Notes under the pieces: generated by a model
Database searches by the model: none
Told to the model about the DNA's origin: nothing
The model's input: only the letters and a program-made list of their open reading frames with translations
Program-made: the position numbers and the translations under genes
Assembly: GCA_017550775.1 (NCBI GenBank)
Contig: JAFZOA010000284.1
Coordinates: forward strand, 1 to 6,936
Direction of reading: 5' to 3'
Origin: Ruminiclostridium sp.
GTDB taxonomy: Bacteria; Bacillota_A; Clostridia; Oscillospirales; Ruminococcaceae
Length of the DNA stretch: 6,936 nucleotides
In this document: piece by piece, positions 1 to 6,936 of the stretch
Layout: each line of letters begins with the position of its first letter
Position numbering within the stretch: position 1 is the first letter of the stretch

Positions 1-2
1 AG

Positions 3-1379
3 CGGACAGGATATGCGTTCGTGTATAAGCTCGGGCGGTACGCGACTGAGCTTGTGATAATGCTCACCTCCGCCTCGGTCATATATCTTGCCGTACTTCA
101 CGACCCGGACTTTGATACGGGGCTTTACGGTGTGGCGGAGCTTGTCTATGACCTTCTGAAGGTGCCGTCGGCGGTTCTTCTTTCCACATGGCTCGTTATC
201 AACCTCATAGTCTTTGTCATCATCGAGCTTGTTAGCCGCGAAAAGCTCACGAAGCCGAAGAAGCTGGGTCTTGCCGTCCTTCGTTTTGCGGCATCGGCGG
301 GGGTATCGTTCCTTATCTGCTTCGGGGTTTTCAGCAGCGACGGCTTCGGCGCGGGTGCGTATGTTCCCGGGGTGTCGGAGATCGGGAGCGTCGGTATGTA
401 CTGGTACAGCTCGGATATGTATGCTATAGACCATTACGCCGAGGTGAAGGACGAGAGCGCGGTAAAGCTCATCACCGACTATCACCGCCGTATTATCGCA
501 GAGCGCCCCGACGAATACTTCAACTCGTTAAGCCTCAGCTACTACATGAAAAACGGGGAATATGTCCACAGGACGTATTACCTCCCCACGGAATACACCC
601 TCGACTGCACGAAGCTGTGGTTTGAGAGCGGCGCCTTCGCGGAGGGCTGCAAGAGCAGAATGCCCGGGTATGACGCGATCCCGAGGCTGTCCGTGAACGT
701 CGGTACTGTCGGCAACATCAACGGCGAGGCGGTATGGACGAAAGCCGGTATAGGCGCGAATGAGTTCCTTACCGCGCTTACACACGATGTCGAAAAGACC
801 GCCTACGAGGACATTTTCCGGCACGACGGAGCAGGCTATATCTGGGTAGCTCTGCTCCCCGAGAACAGCATTACCTCGCAGTACAAGTTTCAGGTGTGGG
901 ACACCTTCGAGGAGACCCGCGGGCTGCTGAGAGAGTGCAACTGCGACGTTTTCGGACAGCTCCTTGACGATCACGCCGTGAAATTCTATATGTACAAGGC
1001 GACAAGTCTCGGAGACTACACCACGAAGAAAAAGCTCATGGAGACCGTGGATATCTACGGCGACACCAGGGTTTACGACGAGCCGAGGGAGTACCGCGAG
1101 CTCGACTATGTGACGGCAAGGGAGCTGATAACGAAGTCGGCGGTCATGACCATGTACTCTGAAAGCCGCGATATATACATCATCGTGCCGTCCTACGAGT
1201 TCCTGGACGAAAACGGCGAGAAATACTTCCGCACAGGCTACAGCGGGGATTACGAATACTATGTCACCGAGGCGAACCTTGACGAGGCGGCGGGAATATA
1301 CGCGAACGCTCCCGCCGCGACCGACGATGAGCTCCGGAAGTACCTCGGCGTGATAAACAATTACACATGGGGAGAGTGA
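3..1379 (+). CDS. ABC-2 type permease with extracytoplasmic C-terminal domain, 5' truncated by window edge
   Basis: The frame is open from position 3 with no stop, and a GTG at 21 has no ribosome binding site, so I read this as the C-terminal part (458 visible residues) of a longer gene. Its opening residues (RTGYAFVYK) match RTGNAFVFK of the next gene, which lie about 290 residues into that protein, so roughly that much is missing here. Three hydrophobic segments follow (roughly visible residues 14-35, 56-77 and 90-111), then a polar, Tyr-rich domain presumed outside the membrane. Shared with the neighbour is the pattern SY..K.G....R.Y..P.EY (around visible residues 180-200). It is probably one half of a heteromeric ABC exporter membrane unit, like other Firmicute loci with paired permeases. 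The tail continues about 120 residues beyond the point where the paralogue ends. The ATPase and substrate are not visible. The C-terminal domain resembles what is annotated DUF6449 in such permeases, from memory. Confidence 0.8.
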   Translation, partial: RTGYAFVYKLGRYATELVIMLTSASVIYLAVLHDPDFDTGLYGVAELVYDLLKVPSAVLLSTWLVINLIVFVIIELVSREKLTKPKKLGLAVLRFAASAGVSFLICFGVFSSDGFGAGAYVPGVSEIGSVGMYWYSSDMYAIDHYAEVKDESAVKLITDYHRRIIAERPDEYFNSLSLSYYMKNGEYVHRTYYLPTEYTLDCTKLWFESGAFAEGCKSRMPGYDAIPRLSVNVGTVGNINGEAVWTKAGIGANEFLTALTHDVEKTAYEDIFRHDGAGYIWVALLPENSITSQYKFQVWDTFEETRGLLRECNCDVFGQLLDDHAVKFYMYKATSLGDYTTKKKLMETVDIYGDTRVYDEPREYRELDYVTARELITKSAVMTMYSESRDIYIIVPSYEFLDENGEKYFRTGYSGDYEYYVTEANLDEAAGIYANAPAATDDELRKYLGVINNYTWGE

Positions 1380-1384
1380 GAGGA

Positions 1385-3244
1385 ATGAAATATTATCTGT
1401 ACAAGCTTAGAACGCTTAAAGTGCATATCGTGCTGATGTGCATTTTCGCGGCGGCTTCCTATCCGCTCTTTTCGTCGGCGCTCGCCGCATATTTCAACAT
1501 CTACATCGGCTACGACGAAATGGTGAAGACCGCCTATAACCGTAACTCCGCCGAGCTCGCGAAGCTGGACGAAATGCTCTCGGACGCTCTGAACACCACC
1601 ATATTTATGGGTATCATAGGCGCGGTGGCTCTGATAGCAATGTTCACGACGGCGATACCGGTACTTGTGAAGTGCTTCGGGTATCTGAGCAAAAAGCCGC
1701 TCGCCGATATGGAGATGTCCGCGCCGGTAACGGTGAGGACGCGCTTCTTCGGAAGCTTCTTCGCCGGTCTCACAGTTTATCTTGTACCCCACGTCATCGC
1801 GGCGGCCATCGGCTGGGCGGAGATAGGCGGGGACACGGGCGTGAGGGTGATCGACAACGTACACGAATCCTACCGGCGCATGATGATCTACGGGCTTATG
1901 ATGTGCGTGCTGTTCTACTGCTCGACGGCGCTTATCGTTGCGGTATGCGGGCGGATAAGGACAGCGGTGATACTGACGGTATTCATGAATTTCGCGGTTC
2001 CCGCCGTGACGATCTGCGCGGGGTATCTCTCGTTCACCTTCGGCTACGGGCTGAACACGGGGCTTGTCGATGAGATGTTTGAAAGGGTAGGGTGGTTCTC
2101 GCCGCTCGGACTGCTGATAAAGTATCTCGCGCAGGGCATTTTCGGCTCCCACGCGAGCGGCATGATACAACCTGCGCACCTGCTCCTGTTCCTGCTGTAC
2201 TGCGCGGTTTTCGCTGCGGCGGCATACTTCCTCGTGAAGCACCGCCGCCACGAGCGCACCGGCAATGCTTTCGTGTTTAAGAATGCGCGGCACGTATTCT
2301 CAGCTGCTGCGGTACTCGCCGTGACACTTATCATCACCTCGTCTGTGGTACCGGGCTTTGATGCCATGACGCAAATAGGAGTAGCGGCGGGGACTGTTGC
2401 GAGGATAGTGGCGGTTGACGCAGTGCTCTGGCTCCTTACCACATTCGGCTTCTTCTGCGCCTTTGAATTTGCGGGGAGCAAGGGTGAGAAAAACAGAAAG
2501 AAGCGGTTCGCACTGTTCGCGCCGATCGTCATGGCAAGCGCTGCGGTGACCTTCGCGGTGACCTTTACTCAGGGCTTCGGCGCGGCTTATCAGGTCCCCG
2601 TACCCGACAACATAGACAACGCCCGTATAAGCGTTGAGGTGGGGGATATGTATTTCAGCGCGGCGTATTTCGACAAGGAGATCTACGCCCCGTACTTTGA
2701 CGAGGGTATCTACGGTAGCGAGATACTCGACGACCAGCCCGACCCGTCCGAGATAACAAACCTTCACCGGGACATCATCACGGGTGTCAGGGGAGATACC
2801 GGCGAGGTGGAGATATCGTATGCTCTGAAAAGCGGGGTCGCGGTATCGAGAAAATACACCGTCCCGGAGGAATACCTGAAACGCGCCTTTGAGCTTACCG
2901 GAATGCCGGATATCAAGCCGTGGGAGCTTGAGGGTATAGGCAAAAGCGAGTATGTGAAGGTCGAGACACCCTACCGCGGCAAGCCCGCCATGAGCGCCGA
3001 GATACCGTCGGAGGAATTTCTGAAGGCGATAAAGGCGGACTGCGCAGATCTTTCTTACGAACGCGCAAAGATCATGAACACCCACAGCGCGGACGAAAAC
3101 TGTTACTTCTGGGTATATTACGGGAGCGGAGAGGAAAAGTACAGCTACGGCTTCTCGATCACCGTGAACAGTCTTTTTACGCGCACCATAGACCTTCTCG
3201 AACAGTACGGGATCCCGCGTGAGGAGCTTTTTCCCTGGAAATGA
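1385..3244 (+). CDS. ABC-2 type permease with extracytoplasmic C-terminal domain (tandem paralogue)
   Basis: A 619-residue membrane protein beginning MKYYLYKLR. I chose ATG 1385, with GGGGAG about 10 nt upstream. An in-frame ATG at 1367 would overlap the previous gene by 13 nt and lacks a clear Shine-Dalgarno. With 1385 the gap to the upstream stop is 5 nt, so the two genes are co-transcribed and probably translationally coupled. I see about nine hydrophobic segments: near residues 13-36, 73-97, 121-144, 167-187, 195-218, 265-284, 302-321, 335-362 and 376-398. The last ~210 residues form a polar domain with the same SY..K.G....R.Y..P.EY pattern as the paralogue. The layout of short cytoplasmic N-terminus, two groups of membrane segments and a large C-terminal domain fits ABC-2 type transport permeases that need a separate ATPase. 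Substrate is unknown; drug, peptide or envelope-stress export are the usual roles. The gene ends at the hairpin at 3257. Confidence 0.85.
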   Translation: MKYYLYKLRTLKVHIVLMCIFAAASYPLFSSALAAYFNIYIGYDEMVKTAYNRNSAELAKLDEMLSDALNTTIFMGIIGAVALIAMFTTAIPVLVKCFGYLSKKPLADMEMSAPVTVRTRFFGSFFAGLTVYLVPHVIAAAIGWAEIGGDTGVRVIDNVHESYRRMMIYGLMMCVLFYCSTALIVAVCGRIRTAVILTVFMNFAVPAVTICAGYLSFTFGYGLNTGLVDEMFERVGWFSPLGLLIKYLAQGIFGSHASGMIQPAHLLLFLLYCAVFAAAAYFLVKHRRHERTGNAFVFKNARHVFSAAAVLAVTLIITSSVVPGFDAMTQIGVAAGTVARIVAVDAVLWLLTTFGFFCAFEFAGSKGEKNRKKRFALFAPIVMASAAVTFAVTFTQGFGAAYQVPVPDNIDNARISVEVGDMYFSAAYFDKEIYAPYFDEGIYGSEILDDQPDPSEITNLHRDIITGVRGDTGEVEISYALKSGVAVSRKYTVPEEYLKRAFELTGMPDIKPWELEGIGKSEYVKVETPYRGKPAMSAEIPSEEFLKAIKADCADLSYERAKIMNTHSADENCYFWVYYGSGEEKYSYGFSITVNSLFTRTIDLLEQYGIPREELFPWK

Positions 3245-3256
3245 AATAAAGAACAA

Positions 3257-3296
3257 ACAAAGCGTATAACTTGCATAGGCGGGTTATACGCTTTGT
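3257..3296. terminator. Bidirectional intrinsic terminator between convergent genes
   Basis: Perfect 14-bp inverted repeat: ACAAAGCGTATAAC at 3257-3270 and GTTATACGCTTTGT at 3283-3296, with a 12-nt loop. It lies 12 nt after the permease stop and 87 nt beyond the araD stop on the other strand. On the minus strand the stem is followed by a T-rich run (TTGTTCTTTATTTC). On the plus strand the tail is GTTGTCTG, which is weak, so it probably serves araD better than the permeases. Confidence 0.8.
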
Positions 3297-3383
3297 GTTG
3301 TCTGCAATATTCACATGATAACGCTTGAAGCGAGTGATGTGTAATCAACGTGACGCTGCACCTGTACGGCAGCATGACGGAAA

Positions 3384-4076
3384 TCAGTTCTGGCCGTAGT
3401 ATGCGTTCTTTCCGTGCTTTCTGAGGTAGTGCTTATCAAGCAGCTCCTGCTGCATAGGACCGATACCGGGAGTCATGCTTTGCGCATGATAGTTCATGAA
3501 CGCAGCTTCTTCGAGCACCACCGCGTTATGCACCGATTCGTGCGCGTCCTTGCCCCATGTGAAGGGTCCGTGGCTCATAACAAGCACAGCGGGTATCGTC
3601 ATGGGGTCGATGCCTTCAAAGGTCTCGATTATCACATTTCCGGTCTCTTTCTCGTATTCTCCTGCGATCTCCGCTGGAGTCATTTTTCTTGTACAGGGTA
3701 TCTCGCCGTAGAAGTAGTCGCCGTGCGTCGTGCCGAGAGCCATAATACCCTTGCCCGCCATTGCGAACGAGGTCGCCCAGCGGCTGTGGGTATGGCAGAT
3801 ACCGCCGACCTCTTTAAATGCGCGGTACAGCGCAAGATGTGTCGGAGTGTCGCTTGAGGGCTTGTATTTTCCCTCCACCTTCTCGCCCGTTTCAAGGCTC
3901 ACGACTACCATATCGTCGGCGGTCATACCGTCATATTCCACTCCGGAGGGCTTTATGACGAACATACCGCTCTCCCTGTCAACGCCGGAAACATTGCCCC
4001 ATGTGAATGTGACAAGTCCGTGCTTCGGGAGCATAAGGTTCGCTTCAAGTACTTCCTGTTTCAGTTTTTCAAGCAT
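3384..4076 (-). CDS. araD: L-ribulose-5-phosphate 4-epimerase (class II aldolase family)
   Basis: A 230-residue protein, about the length of E. coli AraD (231). It interconverts L-ribulose-5-phosphate and D-xylulose-5-phosphate in the cytoplasm, the last step joining L-arabinose use to the pentose phosphate pathway. Family residues are all visible: Asn28 in WGNVSG, Lys42-Pro-Ser44-Gly45 in the phosphate site, Ser74-Ser75-Asp76, the zinc ligands His95 and His97 in CHTHSRW, His169 in SHGPF, Asp120 in THGDYF, and Tyr227 in the terminal AYYGQ motif. The start ATG has AGGAG six to seven bases upstream on the minus strand (TATAGGAGAAGATC), which fixes it. The gene stands alone: no araA, araB or transporter is in the window, so it is a single-gene unit here or those genes are elsewhere. 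UlaF and SgbE are the close alternatives within the family; the arabinose role is the more usual in gut Firmicutes. Confidence 0.95.
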
Positions 4077-4110
4077 GATCTTCTCCTATAATAATATTTT
4101 TTTATTCAGC

Positions 4111-4235
4111 CGATCGTAAAACTCTGAAAACATCTTTAATACATTTGTTATAAATCATTTAAAACATAGTTTTCTTCCTCTTGATATTTATCCCCGTCGG
4201 AGGTGTGGATAGATACTGTCGGACTTTTACGATCG
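4111..4235. promoter_or_regulatory. Inverted repeat pair flanking the araD control region
   Basis: CGATCGTAAAA at 4111-4121 is repeated exactly in reverse complement (TTTTACGATCG) at 4225-4235, start-to-start distance 114 bp, about eleven helical turns. Both lie upstream of araD on its strand, the nearer one 35 bases before the ATG. The DNA between is AT-rich and must hold the araD promoter, but I see no good TTGACA/TATAAT pair, which fits an activated or repressed promoter. Paired operators for a sugar-responsive regulator are one reading; this is inference. The remaining bases up to 4353 are the 3' flank of the acyltransferase gene, and I see no convincing terminator there. Confidence 0.35.
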
Positions 4236-4353
4236 CCTGTTGTTATTAATGATTCTCTGTTTCGTGCATCGTTCATACCGGCATGTCAAACAGCTTGCAG
4301 AAATTGTTGGTGTCCGGAAAAAGTCTCTCGCGGAGCAGCGGGCTGTTCAGCGC

Positions 4354-5442
4354 CTATACCGAATACGTCCTTTTTTTCCAATGCTTTGCGATCACCGCAA
4401 ACAACGGCTTTGTTACCAGATCGTATATCAGGTACAGCACAAAGCTTATAAGATACATTACGATCGTGCAGCCGAGGATATGTGCCGTGAGAAGCGCGGG
4501 GTTTTCCTGCACAAACCTGTCGATGCCGCAGTATTCAAGCAGGTTCATGTGGATAAGATATGCCGGGAATGACGCGACAGCAAGCTTGTTTATCACGCTG
4601 TTGCCGGCCATATTTATGTTCCGGAATAGCAGGAACACAAGGACGGATTCTATTATCACCAACGGGTGCTCGTAATTGTATGCGGTCGTAGCAAAGATGT
4701 CTCGTCCGGTGATCGTCTTTTCAAGATATGTGAGACCCATGATCGCCGCGACTGTAAGTAAAAGCCAGAGCAGGAGCTTGCCGGAACCCGTTTTTTTGCC
4801 CTTGTCCTCACGGTCTTTCAGATAGCAGCCGATCAGATACACGAGCACAAAATTCACTATCGTATATCCCGCCTGTGAACCGAAAAGCCCTATGGTGCTT
4901 GCTCCGTAAATATCGTCCTGATAGTAATACTGGACAATGTCGGGGATTATGGCATATACCGAGAACAGACCCGCCAATATCAGTAACAGCGTCTTTTTGC
5001 CTGAGTCGGAGAGGTGTGTCCAGACAAGGTTGATATACGGCGAGATAAGATACAGTGCGATATACACGAACACGAACCAGTAGCTCGGCGTGAAGTATCC
5101 GAGAACAGTCCTGAAGTCGAGACTGTTTCCTTTCGGAAGCTCCTTTATCAGGCAGAATGCAAGTTCAAAAACCACAAGCTGTGCAATAAGTCCCACCGGC
5201 TTTAAGAAGTCACGTTTCATCGAGCCGCGCATAAAATAGCCGGATATGAGCACATAAAGATTGACCGCGCATATTGATAACGACTCAAAGAACGTCATGA
5301 TCGCCTGGTTTATGCTCCCGTCGGTAACAGCTGCATATCCGCCTCCTATTTTCGGATTGTTGTAGTGAAGAATGATAACTCCGCACGCCGCGATTATTCG
5401 CAGCAATTCTATATTTGATTGTCTGTTCGCTCTGTCCGCCAT
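4354..5442 (-). CDS. Membrane O-acyltransferase, acyltransferase-3 family
   Basis: A 362-residue polytopic membrane protein. The N-terminus carries the family signature, R..NIELLRII then V.ILHY, with the conserved His in the first membrane helix; this His is thought to take part in acyl transfer. Further family marks are YLVLISGYF-like FAM region (NLYVLISGYFM), SYWFVFVYIALYLISP in the middle, and SFPAYLIH near the C-terminus. About ten hydrophobic segments are seen, as usual for this family, which moves acetyl or other acyl groups onto cell-surface sugars, teichoic acids, exopolysaccharides or secreted metabolites. I start at ATG 5442 because the purine-rich GAGAGAAG sits 8 nt upstream; a GTG three codons earlier would abut that site. 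It has its own promoter (5502-5530) and no glycosyltransferase neighbours, so the acceptor cannot be inferred. The protein ends in a basic stretch, KHWKKR, typical of a cytoplasmic tail. Confidence 0.9.
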   Translation of the reverse strand: MADRANRQSNIELLRIIAACGVIILHYNNPKIGGGYAAVTDGSINQAIMTFFESLSICAVNLYVLISGYFMRGSMKRDFLKPVGLIAQLVVFELAFCLIKELPKGNSLDFRTVLGYFTPSYWFVFVYIALYLISPYINLVWTHLSDSGKKTLLLILAGLFSVYAIIPDIVQYYYQDDIYGASTIGLFGSQAGYTIVNFVLVYLIGCYLKDREDKGKKTGSGKLLLWLLLTVAAIMGLTYLEKTITGRDIFATTAYNYEHPLVIIESVLVFLLFRNINMAGNSVINKLAVASFPAYLIHMNLLEYCGIDRFVQENPALLTAHILGCTIVMYLISFVLYLIYDLVTKPLFAVIAKHWKKRTYSV

Positions 5443-5501
5443 GTTACACACTTCTCTCAGGTAGTAAGTCCATATATCCTAAAGCAAATCACTTTCTGTT
5501 A

Positions 5502-5530
5502 ATTATAGCACATTTTCACGAAAAGGTCAA
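5502..5530 (-). promoter_or_regulatory. Sigma-A promoter of the acyltransferase gene
   Basis: Read on the minus strand: TTGACC (5525-5530), 17-nt spacer, TATAAT (5502-5507), with TGC directly before the -10 (extended -10). The start site should fall near 5495, giving a leader of about 52 nt. An imperfect dyad (AAAAG-g-TCA-a-TGA-CTTTT, 5521-5538) covers the -35 box and could be an operator. Confidence 0.8.
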
Positions 5531-5666
5531 TGACTTTTGAAGGACTTTCGGTAATTTTTATAAATGCGGAACATACACGCCCGGTCAGAGATCCCGCAGA
5601 AATAAAGCGCGTATTCCGGTTTTACAGTCGATCACATAAAGAATATTGTTTTTTTGCCCAAAACAC

Positions 5667-5695
5667 TTGACAAATCCGGAGAAAAATAGTATAAT
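5667..5695 (+). promoter_or_regulatory. Consensus sigma-A promoter of the 98-aa protein gene
   Basis: TTGACA (5667-5672), 17-nt spacer, TATAAT (5690-5695): a full match to consensus, diverging from the acyltransferase promoter. The start site should be near 5702, and a small dyad ACGGT-aaa-ACCGT (5704-5716) lies exactly there, as a possible operator or 5' stem protecting the transcript. The rest of the 309-bp divergent intergenic stretch (5443-5751) shows nothing else I can name. Confidence 0.85.
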
Positions 5696-5751
5696 ATTCA
5701 CGAACGGTAAAACCGTAACATATATCAATCTTATTTTTAGGAGGCTATATT

Positions 5752-6048
5752 ATGGCACACAAGGAAACATTAGAACAGTTGAAGGGTAATCCCCAGCAGG
5801 CAAAGCAGTTCAACGAGGTCGCTACATTTATCAACGATGCGCTCAAAAAGGAAATGCCTGTTCTTATGAAGCTGGTGCAGTTTGATGTCCTGGCGGAGAT
5901 CCAGAAGAAAGCAATTGCGGACGGCCTCAAAAACGCCAATTCGGGCGAAAAACAGCTTACAGAAACGCTCGACAAGCTGCTCGGTCAGGTAAACAAGGAT
6001 CTGCTGAATCAGATCTCCAAGGCTTGCGAGAAGCTCAAGGCGCAGTAA
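5752..6048 (+). CDS. Hypothetical small helical protein, strongly expressed
   Basis: A 98-residue protein that I do not recognise. It has no signal peptide or membrane segment, so it should be cytoplasmic. The sequence is rich in Lys, Gln, Glu, Leu and Ala with few helix breakers after residue 15, and reads as three or four amphipathic helices: about 15-32, 34-60, 65-80 and 82-96. A Gly and Ser bearing turn (NANSGE, 61-66) separates the halves. There is one Cys (92). Reality as a gene is supported by a consensus promoter, AGGAGG seven bases before ATG, and a terminator right after the stop. Such a high-expression single-gene unit suggests a structural or binding protein needed in many copies rather than an enzyme. 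It could be a small coiled-coil or bundle protein; no function is claimed. Confidence 0.85.
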   Translation: MAHKETLEQLKGNPQQAKQFNEVATFINDALKKEMPVLMKLVQFDVLAEIQKKAIADGLKNANSGEKQLTETLDKLLGQVNKDLLNQISKACEKLKAQ

Positions 6049-6060
6049 ATACATTATCTA

Positions 6061-6100
6061 AAAGCGGTTTGTCTCTGTTCAGGACGGGGACAGCCGCTTT
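6061..6100 (+). terminator. Intrinsic terminator of the 98-aa protein gene
   Basis: Begins 12 nt after the stop. AAAGCGG (6061-6067) pairs with CCGCTTT (6094-6100), and an inner stem CTGTTC/GGACAG extends it with a bulge on the 5' side. The tail ATTTGGAT is only moderately T-rich, so read-through into the repeat block downstream is possible. Confidence 0.7.
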
Positions 6101-6113
6101 ATTTGGATAAACC

Positions 6114-6366
6114 CGGCGGCGAGGAAGAAAATATCCCGCCTCGGGAGACCCGGGACGGGAATGGGTCCAGCGTCACGCCGTTAGAGTTAACATTTCAGAT
6201 AATACTACGGCGGCGAGGAAGAAAATATCTCGCCTCGGGAGACCCGGGACGGGAATGGGTCCAGCGTCACGCCGTTAGAGTTAACATTTCAGATAATACT
6301 ACGGCGGCGAGGAAGAAAATATCCCGCCTCATGTGACCCGGGACGGGAATGGGTCCAGCGTCACGC
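6114..6366. repeat. 94-bp tandem direct repeat, 2.7 copies, GC-rich
   Basis: Copies start at 6114, 6208 and 6302 with an exact 94-bp period; the third is cut at 6366 (65 bp). Copies 1 and 2 differ by about one base (C to T in ATCCCGCC). Copy 3 has three clustered changes, where CTCGGGAG became CTCATGTG. Each unit has a GC-rich part with several short complementary arms (CGGCG/CGCCG at its ends, GGAC/GTCC inside) and an AT-rich linker containing GTTAAC. Because 94 is not a multiple of three, the reading frame changes in each copy, so this is not coding. The last copy runs into a perfect 8-bp palindrome, TCCAGCGT-c-ACGCTGGA (6354-6370). It may be an intergenic repeat family or a repeated structured RNA; I recognise neither. 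Confidence 0.9.
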
Positions 6367-6381
6367 TGGAGGAACAATACC

Positions 6382-6539
6382 ATGACATCTGGAAGCCGTT
6401 CAGCTTTCAAAGGTGAACATACTGTAGGGGGGGATATTACATTATTGACCCTATAAAAAAGCCTCCGGATTGTTATAGTTGGTACTTCAAATTCTACGGA
6501 CGATTTTTAAGACGCTCGAATCGAATAAGATTAATTTAA
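6382..6539 (+). pseudogene. Possible tiny gene interrupted at a 7-G run
   Basis: ATG 6382 has GGAGG ten bases upstream and opens a 24-codon frame (MTSGSRSAFKG...) that stops at 6456. It contains seven consecutive G at 6427-6433. With one more G the frame would pass into another that stays open to TAA 6537-6539, giving 52 residues with an aromatic, basic C-terminus (YSWYFKFYGRF). This could be a phase-variable or decayed small gene, a base-call error in a homopolymer, or chance. No family is recognised. Confidence 0.2.
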
Positions 6540-6564
6540 CTAAGATTTATAAGTATATTCTTAC

Positions 6565-6593
6565 TTGACAAAATCAAATTAATAATATATAAT
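6565..6593 (+). promoter_or_regulatory. Consensus promoter upstream of the type III antitoxin region
   Basis: TTGACA (6565-6570), 17-nt spacer, TATAAT (6588-6593). The start site is expected near 6600, just where a perfect dyad AAAGAT-atg-ATCTTT sits (6601-6615). About 45 nt further an AT-only hairpin AACAAAAAT/ATTTTTGTT (6644-6667) lies before the next promoter. It could be a second promoter for the downstream locus or drive a short RNA. In such AT-rich DNA chance matches are more likely, hence moderate confidence. Confidence 0.55.
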
Positions 6594-6686
6594 TATAAAA
6601 AAAGATATGATCTTTAAAATCAATCGGGCTGTTGTACAAAATTAACAAAAATGTTATTATTTTTGTTTGAAATATTATTAAAAGTG

Positions 6687-6714
6687 TTGACTTTTTTGAT
6701 TTGTGTGCTATAAT
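6687..6714 (+). promoter_or_regulatory. Promoter of the type III antitoxin-toxin transcript
   Basis: TTGACT (6687-6692), 16-nt spacer, TATAAT (6709-6714), with TGC immediately before the -10, an extended -10 element. The start site is expected near 6720, where an 8-bp hairpin TAAAGAAG-tattt-CTTCTTTA (6719-6739) begins. It precedes the 45-nt repeats directly. Confidence 0.75.
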
Positions 6715-6744
6715 AATGTAAAGAAGTATTTCTTCTTTATTGAA

Positions 6745-6871
6745 CAATTACGTTTCACAATGTACGGCAAAAAACATTGTATTATGATTCAATTATGTTT
6801 CGCAATGTACAGCAAAACACATTGCACTATGATTCAATTACGGCTCGCAATGTCCGGCAAAACACATTGTA
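6745..6871 (+). ncRNA. Type III toxin-antitoxin antitoxin RNA (CptI/ToxI-like), three 45-nt pseudoknot repeats
   Basis: Three direct repeats with an exact 45-nt period start at 6745, 6790 and 6835 (unit begins CAATTAYGKYTC). In each, a 7-bp helix RCAATGT/ACATTGY (6757-6763 with 6774-6780; 6802-6808 with 6819-6825; 6847-6853 with 6864-6870) is crossed by a 3-bp helix between the bases before it and the first three loop bases: CGT with ACG, TGT with ACA, CGG with CCG. This gives an H-type pseudoknot with a 3-nt first loop and an A-rich last loop (GCAAAAM). Base changes between copies keep both helices paired. In known type III systems (ToxIN, CptIN, TenpIN) such repeats are cut by the toxin RNase into units that wrap and neutralise it. 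Unit length, promoter upstream, terminator and gene downstream all fit. The family is inferred; a 45-nt unit and clostridial host suggest CptIN. A structured regulatory leader is the alternative. Confidence 0.75.
6745..6871 (+). repeat. 45-bp tandem direct repeat, three copies
   Basis: Units 6745-6789, 6790-6834 and 6835-6871; the third is cut short at the terminator stem. The most constant parts are CAATTA, CAATGT, GCAAAA, ACATTG and the linker TATGATT. The start of the first unit differs upstream of CAATTA (TGAA instead of GATT). Confidence 0.95.
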
Positions 6872-6914
6872 GATACTGCTGTATTTAAGATTATACAGCA
6901 GTATCATTTTGTTT
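6872..6914 (+). terminator. Intrinsic terminator between antitoxin RNA and downstream gene
   Basis: Perfect 13-bp stem: GATACTGCTGTAT (6872-6884) and ATACAGCAGTATC (6893-6905), 8-nt loop, followed by ATTTTGTTT. It starts one base after the last pseudoknot and ends at the Shine-Dalgarno of the next gene. In type III systems a leaky terminator here makes the RNA far more abundant than the toxin mRNA; partial read-through is expected because no other promoter lies between. Confidence 0.85.
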
Positions 6915-6926
6915 AGGAGAGTTAAA

Positions 6927-6936
6927 ATGGTAGAAC
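6927..6936 (+). CDS. Start of a gene cut by the right edge, predicted type III toxin endoribonuclease
   Basis: Only ATG GTA GAA C is visible (Met-Val-Glu). The start is supported by AGGAG at 6915-6919, seven bases upstream. Position directly after tandem pseudoknot repeats and a terminator predicts a ToxN/CptN-fold endoribonuclease of roughly 150-200 residues, which would act in the cytoplasm on A-rich RNA and commonly gives abortive phage resistance or plasmid/locus stability. The protein sequence itself gives no evidence here; this rests on context alone. Confidence 0.6.

Follow-up and report, generated by a model that had tools for sequence, protein, structure and literature searches.

In the CptIN family of type III toxin-antitoxin systems, each of three CptI RNAs is reported to neutralise its own toxin alone, and CptIN to stabilise plasmids and to be without effect against over 200 coliphages (PMC4627078). 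According to the accessible parts of two further sources, three candidate RNAs located upstream of ToxN in Clostridiales and Leptotrichia were proposed as ToxI antitoxins (PMC8040213), and the abiF RNA motif (RF03085), a candidate from a survey of structured RNAs found upstream of a toxin-like gene, was followed up as an RNA partner (PMC12373285, where Weinberg 2017 is cited for the motif). Here we describe the right edge (6687-6936) of a stretch of 6,936 nucleotides (nt) from Ruminiclostridium sp. (contig JAFZOA010000284.1, positions 1 to 6,936; the whole stretch is called the window, and all parts of the locus given below lie on the forward strand). This edge very probably carries a CptIN-like type III module, that is, the antitoxin half together with the opening ten bases of the toxin half. 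Of the three families ToxIN, CptIN, and TenpIN, CptIN is the nearest, the toxin and RNA comparisons having been run against CptIN and ToxIN. AbiF of Clostridioides and its abiF RNA motif differ from the window locus in both protein and RNA.

The edge contains three copies of a 45-nt direct repeat (6745-6789, 6790-6834, and 6835-6879), the second and third of which are 87% and 71% identical to the first. Tandem Repeats Finder reports them with a score of 191 (period 45, 2.8 copies, 6745-6871). In a self-match of 6601-6926, 69 positions agree in the best stretch of 80 bases; 300 dinucleotide shuffles reach 37.3 on average and never more than 44, so that the periodicity is far above chance. At the junction between the array and the toxin gene lies an intrinsic terminator (6872-6905; inverted repeat I2, with a 13-base-pair (bp) stem, an 8-nt loop, and a T-rich tail), one such terminator being found by the window scan where 0.1 were expected. 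It is followed by a Shine-Dalgarno sequence, AGGAGAG (6915-6921), and an ATG (6927-6929), both read from the sequence. The type III order of tandem repeats, terminator, and toxin gene is thus present, the gene being known here by its first ten bases. A preliminary description had pointed out the same repeats, terminator hairpin, and gene start, and each was found again.

That description did not recognise the repeat. The array in fact belongs to the Rfam family RF02920 (Fusobacteriales-1 RNA): cmscan gives a full-length match that spans all three units (6746-6870), scoring 81.4 bits where the gathering score is 52.1, with an E-value of 2.7e-10 for the window. RF02920 is a known RNA family without an assigned antitoxin role in Rfam, whose consensus structure line draws three hairpins only; it presumably comes from the same survey as the abiF motif. 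No RF02920 match was found in 14 control genomes. Among the literature matches listed, no title joining RF02920 or Fusobacteriales-1 to a toxin was found, and the link may already be published. The ToxI covariance model, proposed earlier as a comparison, gave no match in the window at E <= 5, and the repeats of ToxIN and AbiQ, as given in the accessible part of PMC5086642, are 34-36 nt long, in contrast to the 45 nt of the window.

Judged from its strong covariation, the repeat unit is an H-type pseudoknot. Its 7-bp second stem (S2) is the hairpin drawn by Rfam, and its first stem (S1) pairs the three bases after the 5' strand of S2 with three bases located 4-6 nt before S2; the first loop (L1) has 3 nt, mostly UUC, and the second (L2) is often A-rich. 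In other words, each RF02920 hairpin becomes S2 of a pseudoknot, and the function, cis-regulatory in Rfam, is read here as that of an antitoxin. Based on the repeat family, the RF02920 match, and a unit scan, the three antitoxin units are located at 6745-6789 (S1 CGT 6751-6753 with ACG 6764-6766; S2 6757-6763 with 6774-6780), 6790-6834 (S1 TGT 6796-6798 with ACA 6809-6811; S2 6802-6808 with 6819-6825), and 6835-6871 (S1 CGG 6841-6843 with CCG 6854-6856; S2 6847-6853 with 6864-6870, including one G-T end pair). The S1 pairs are CGU/ACG, UGU/ACA, and CGG/CCG in RNA; compensatory changes are seen in unit 2 (C-G to T-A) and in unit 3 (T-A to G-C and T-A to C-G), and the full S1 pairing kept in this way by all three units suggests selection.

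The same holds across the relatives. Units were picked by S2 pairing and three L1 bases, not by S1, so that S2 pairing is no independent evidence, while the S1 covariation crosses S2. Among 104 distinct units from 66 sequences, a set that includes some plain chance hairpins, kept although they lower the count, S1 pairs at all three positions in 96, as compared with a mean of 29.6 and a maximum of 43 in 2000 partner shuffles, which ignore the relatedness of the sequences. Between neighbouring units within an array, 330 cells held 124 double changes that remained Watson-Crick, 12 otherwise paired, and 5 broken (110, 12, and 5 in 279 cells after de-duplication), with 15 kinds of double change; 4 of 178 units with fewer than two of the three S1 pairs had been dropped before this count, which favours the pseudoknot. 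When the register is slid by -2, the first position pairs in 99 of the 104 units, no less than in register, an effect of the fixed GT end of S2; taken together, the three positions (99, 76, and 50) fall short of the pairing in register. It should be mentioned that the ViennaRNA energy fold cannot form pseudoknots.

The period of the window array agrees with the about 45 nt of CptIN; in the relatives it is most often 42 nt, with a common range of 38-45. The RNA sequence differs from that of Eubacterium rectale CptIN (PDB 4RMO), which has a longer S1 (our reading of the primer table in PMC4627078) and a one-base L1, in contrast to the 3-bp S1 and 3-nt L1 of the window. The linker A's that precede S1 are nearly invariant (70/71 and 71/71 distinct linkers). 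In E. rectale, the last base of CptI is A45, which carries a cyclic phosphate, and the CptI unit starts with AA, six nt before S1 (PMC4627078, the latter again by our reading of the primer table). These observations point to the linker as the likely cutting place.

What stands behind such arrays was followed in related DNA. By DNA similarity, the array is common to two Clostridioides phages. At one locus (L001), three units come first, then a terminator and a gene for a protein of 176 amino acids, which matches PDB CptN and the NCBIfam CptIN model. Of 953 candidate relatives of this protein, 888 pass E <= 1e-5, and every name shown within the best 120 reads "hypothetical" or "uncharacterised". 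An alignment (A1) of 51 of these 120 listed relatives, used as the query of a locus search, gave 69 toxin loci from genomes and 8 from viral contigs, or 76 after removal of L073, which is the L003 contig. RF02920 lies above threshold directly upstream of the CptN-like toxin in 56 of the 76, of which 47 have a full-length toxin in a single frame. Some loci are near-copies; clustering at 90% reduced 60 full-length toxins to 44 clusters, 35 with RF02920 and 9 without. Record titles place the family in Lachnospiraceae, Oscillospiraceae, Negativicutes, and Bacilli, as well as in some viral contigs. Since RF02920 stands directly before a toxin-like gene in dozens of related bacteria and phages, it is most likely the RNA antidote, and the type III reading of the preliminary description is by far the best supported.

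The 20 loci without RF02920 above threshold comprise seven with a second repeat type, eight with leftover units, two without an array, and three toxin fragments. At least one unit was found by pattern or by eye in L004 (its upstream part cut by the contig end), L019, L021, L044, L049, L052, and L067, and one with an imperfect S2, by eye, in L048. The second repeat type, recognised by eye around CGCCTGCTATGTAGCGTTCCTAAATAGCATAGATTGA, stands upstream of the toxin in L050, L053, L054, L056, L057, L059, and L071; in the six of these loci with a full-length toxin, the only kind of locus placed in the toxin tree, it is paired with a sister toxin clade with the motif IPTSD..HR in Lachnospiraceae and Treponema. 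By eye, it possibly has the same pseudoknot topology. The array is absent from L023 and L040, and L068, L070, and L072 are toxin fragments. Downstream of the CptN-like gene, L040 carries a CRISPR repeat array (CRISPR-DR2, 3230-3592), and the Rfam small RNAs skipping-rope and DUF3800-I lie directly downstream of CptN-like loci (L013, 2493-2570; L063, 2711-2823).

In the window itself, the presumed CptN-like toxin gene (6927-6936) begins with ATGGTAGAAC, or M-V-E-[H/Q/P/L/R], and is truncated by the contig end, so that ATG GTA GAA C is all of its coding sequence present. The contig appears to stop at this point, since the longest contig listed for the window's own membrane protein, P0121, has 6936 bases. 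The pattern [A/T/G]TG-NNN-GAR-C is seen at the start of the toxin match in 40 of 77 other sequences, as in the window, with GAR-C expected by chance at about 1/128; three relatives (P0024, P0091, and P0114) begin with MVEH. The ATG lies 56 nt beyond the last pseudoknot, a distance inside the range of the relatives. The predicted structure of one relative's toxin has the fold of CptN. These observations suggest that the cut gene encodes a CptN-like toxin, which is presumed to be intact.

Upstream of the array, the extended -10 promoter of the preliminary description was recovered by a consensus scan (TTGACT-16-TATAAT with TG, 6687-6714, 11 of 12 matches); as a class, promoter-like sites are near chance in the window, with 5 found and 4.2 expected. 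A second promoter-like site (TTGACA-17-TATAAT, 6565-6593, 12 of 12 matches) lies 5' of it, where the sequence is very rich in A and T. A 9-bp 5' hairpin is predicted at 6718-6740, at the predicted transcript start (ViennaRNA fold of 6715-6745, -7.9 kcal/mol), and short inverted repeats are seen by eye at the same place in L005, L008, L010, and L013. A G+C-rich repeat of 94 nt (6114-6366, 2.7 copies, 96% matches) lies between a small gene (5752-6048) and the toxin-antitoxin locus.

If the locus works as a CptIN-like module, a single promoter would drive an RNA of three 45-nt pseudoknot units, and the terminator 3' of the units would end most transcripts, leaving the RNA antitoxin in excess, while read-through would yield the mRNA of the toxin. 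Presumed to be a ribonuclease with the MazF/Kid fold, the CptN-like toxin may cut the precursor into its units, with the nearly invariant CAA 5' of each pseudoknot as the probable cutting site. It may remain bound to the units, by which its active site would be blocked. If the locus were lost or transcription stopped, for example, upon phage infection, the toxin would then be released. Cutting, inhibition of the toxin by the RNA, and the biological role are proposed here from the known system and the comparative data.

Several points weigh against a CptIN-like module. The toxin gene lies outside the window, Rfam types RF02920 as "Cis-reg", and the linkage was counted outside the namesake order, Fusobacteriales. 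The toxins of the relatives score under the curated cut-off of 90 bits of NCBIfam NF047359 (59.9 bits for P0114 and 64 for L001; the best E among the 51 toxins, 2.1e-18, implies that all 51 should fall below it). Identity to E. rectale CptN is 25-26%. Its serine 51 is replaced by glycine in 51/51 relatives, and its Asp81 has no clear counterpart; the E. rectale-type active site, [Ser]-[Ser/Thr]-[Arg], is absent when the triad residues are assigned by count along the chain, position 52 being N, D, A, K, or M, while His55-Arg56 is invariant and R56 is aligned with R53. Because of the cut-off and the serine in its relatives, the locus is filed as a CptIN-like variant, not as strict CptIN.

The other points against it concern arrays without an intact toxin, and they lead to the alternative that survives best, namely, that the window array is a remnant or a stand-alone antitoxin whose toxin gene is broken or absent past its start, the RNA being a relic or acting alone, for example, on a toxin elsewhere. 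We regard this as rather unlikely. An RNA-first search with Infernal's stricter filters found RF02920 in 9 of 791 genomes, 8 above cut-off, two of the nine being the centre genomes G001 and G002. The seven loci outside the centre genomes include only three with a full-length toxin (L089, L091, and L094); two have a partial match (L090 and L092) and two no adjoining toxin (L088 and L093), which indicates that decayed or orphan arrays are common and that the window may hold one. The DNA of L089, L092, and L094 is identical to that of L021, L060, and L028, respectively; L088, L090, L091, and L093 remain as additional places, and one of these four has a full toxin. L090 is a decayed module that has kept its array and terminator, with the toxin gene reduced to parts resembling its two ends; its normal start ahead of a shortened toxin is a case of what the alternative supposes. 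Split or partial toxins also occur in nine of the 56 RF02920-bearing loci (L055, L058, L060, L061, L063, L064, L065, L066, and L069). Among eight viral contigs with the unit pattern, six have a toxin, and all six had also come up in the toxin search; L096 and L102 carry single RF02920-type units without a CptN-profile gene in the fetched stretch, possibly decoy antitoxins or relics. The window's own repeat, as a degenerate and as an exact pattern, had no match in viral contigs, and no similar DNA was found in plasmid records. On the contrary, the window has a Shine-Dalgarno sequence and an ATG with the family's N-terminal pattern at the usual distance from the last pseudoknot, and the compensatory changes that preserve S1 in all three units argue against simple decay.

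That RF02920 is an ordinary cis-regulatory leader, attenuating the downstream gene without an antitoxin role, is very improbable. The Rfam type and a terminator between RNA and gene would fit such a leader, but tandem self-contained pseudoknots in regular phase would not; moreover, the downstream gene has a relative of solved structure whose inhibitor is a 45-nt pseudoknot released by cutting from an array of this kind (PMC4627078), and the sister toxin clade comes with a different repeat type. That the gene is instead another type III toxin, ToxN/AbiQ, as in the Clostridioides phage ES-S-0107-01 (L002, 2464-3330), where RF02920-type units and then other repeats precede such a gene (PF13958 E 2.5e-35; PADLOC AbiQ E 7.7e-28), can practically be set aside, since in that phage the third unit is lost and the other repeats adjoin the toxin, whereas the window's three units lead straight to the terminator and ATG. 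PF13958 matched none of the 51 toxins of A1. The C-terminal residues of the L002 protein, VALTSLADNE, are identical to those of the CptN-like protein of L001; a module has apparently been exchanged at this phage locus. Most loci were retrieved through the CptN-like toxin, so the set does not give the frequency of such exchange.

A CptIN-like module thus remains our preferred reading, and a bolder extension of it seems doubtful, if worth stating: RF02920 may mark a type III family of its own, large, mostly without annotation, and sister to CptIN, in which the RNA would be cut via the invariant His55-Arg56 pair, the serine having been given up for glycine, the freely co-changing three-bp stem would set the antitoxin, and the orphan units of phages would be decoys. 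S1 changes in a compensatory way even from unit to unit within an array, so that a single toxin may tolerate several stem sequences; this variation makes it possible to ask readily which features of its RNA a CptN-type toxin reads. RF02920, typed only as cis-regulatory, gains a testable function, and so does the large protein family encoded behind it.
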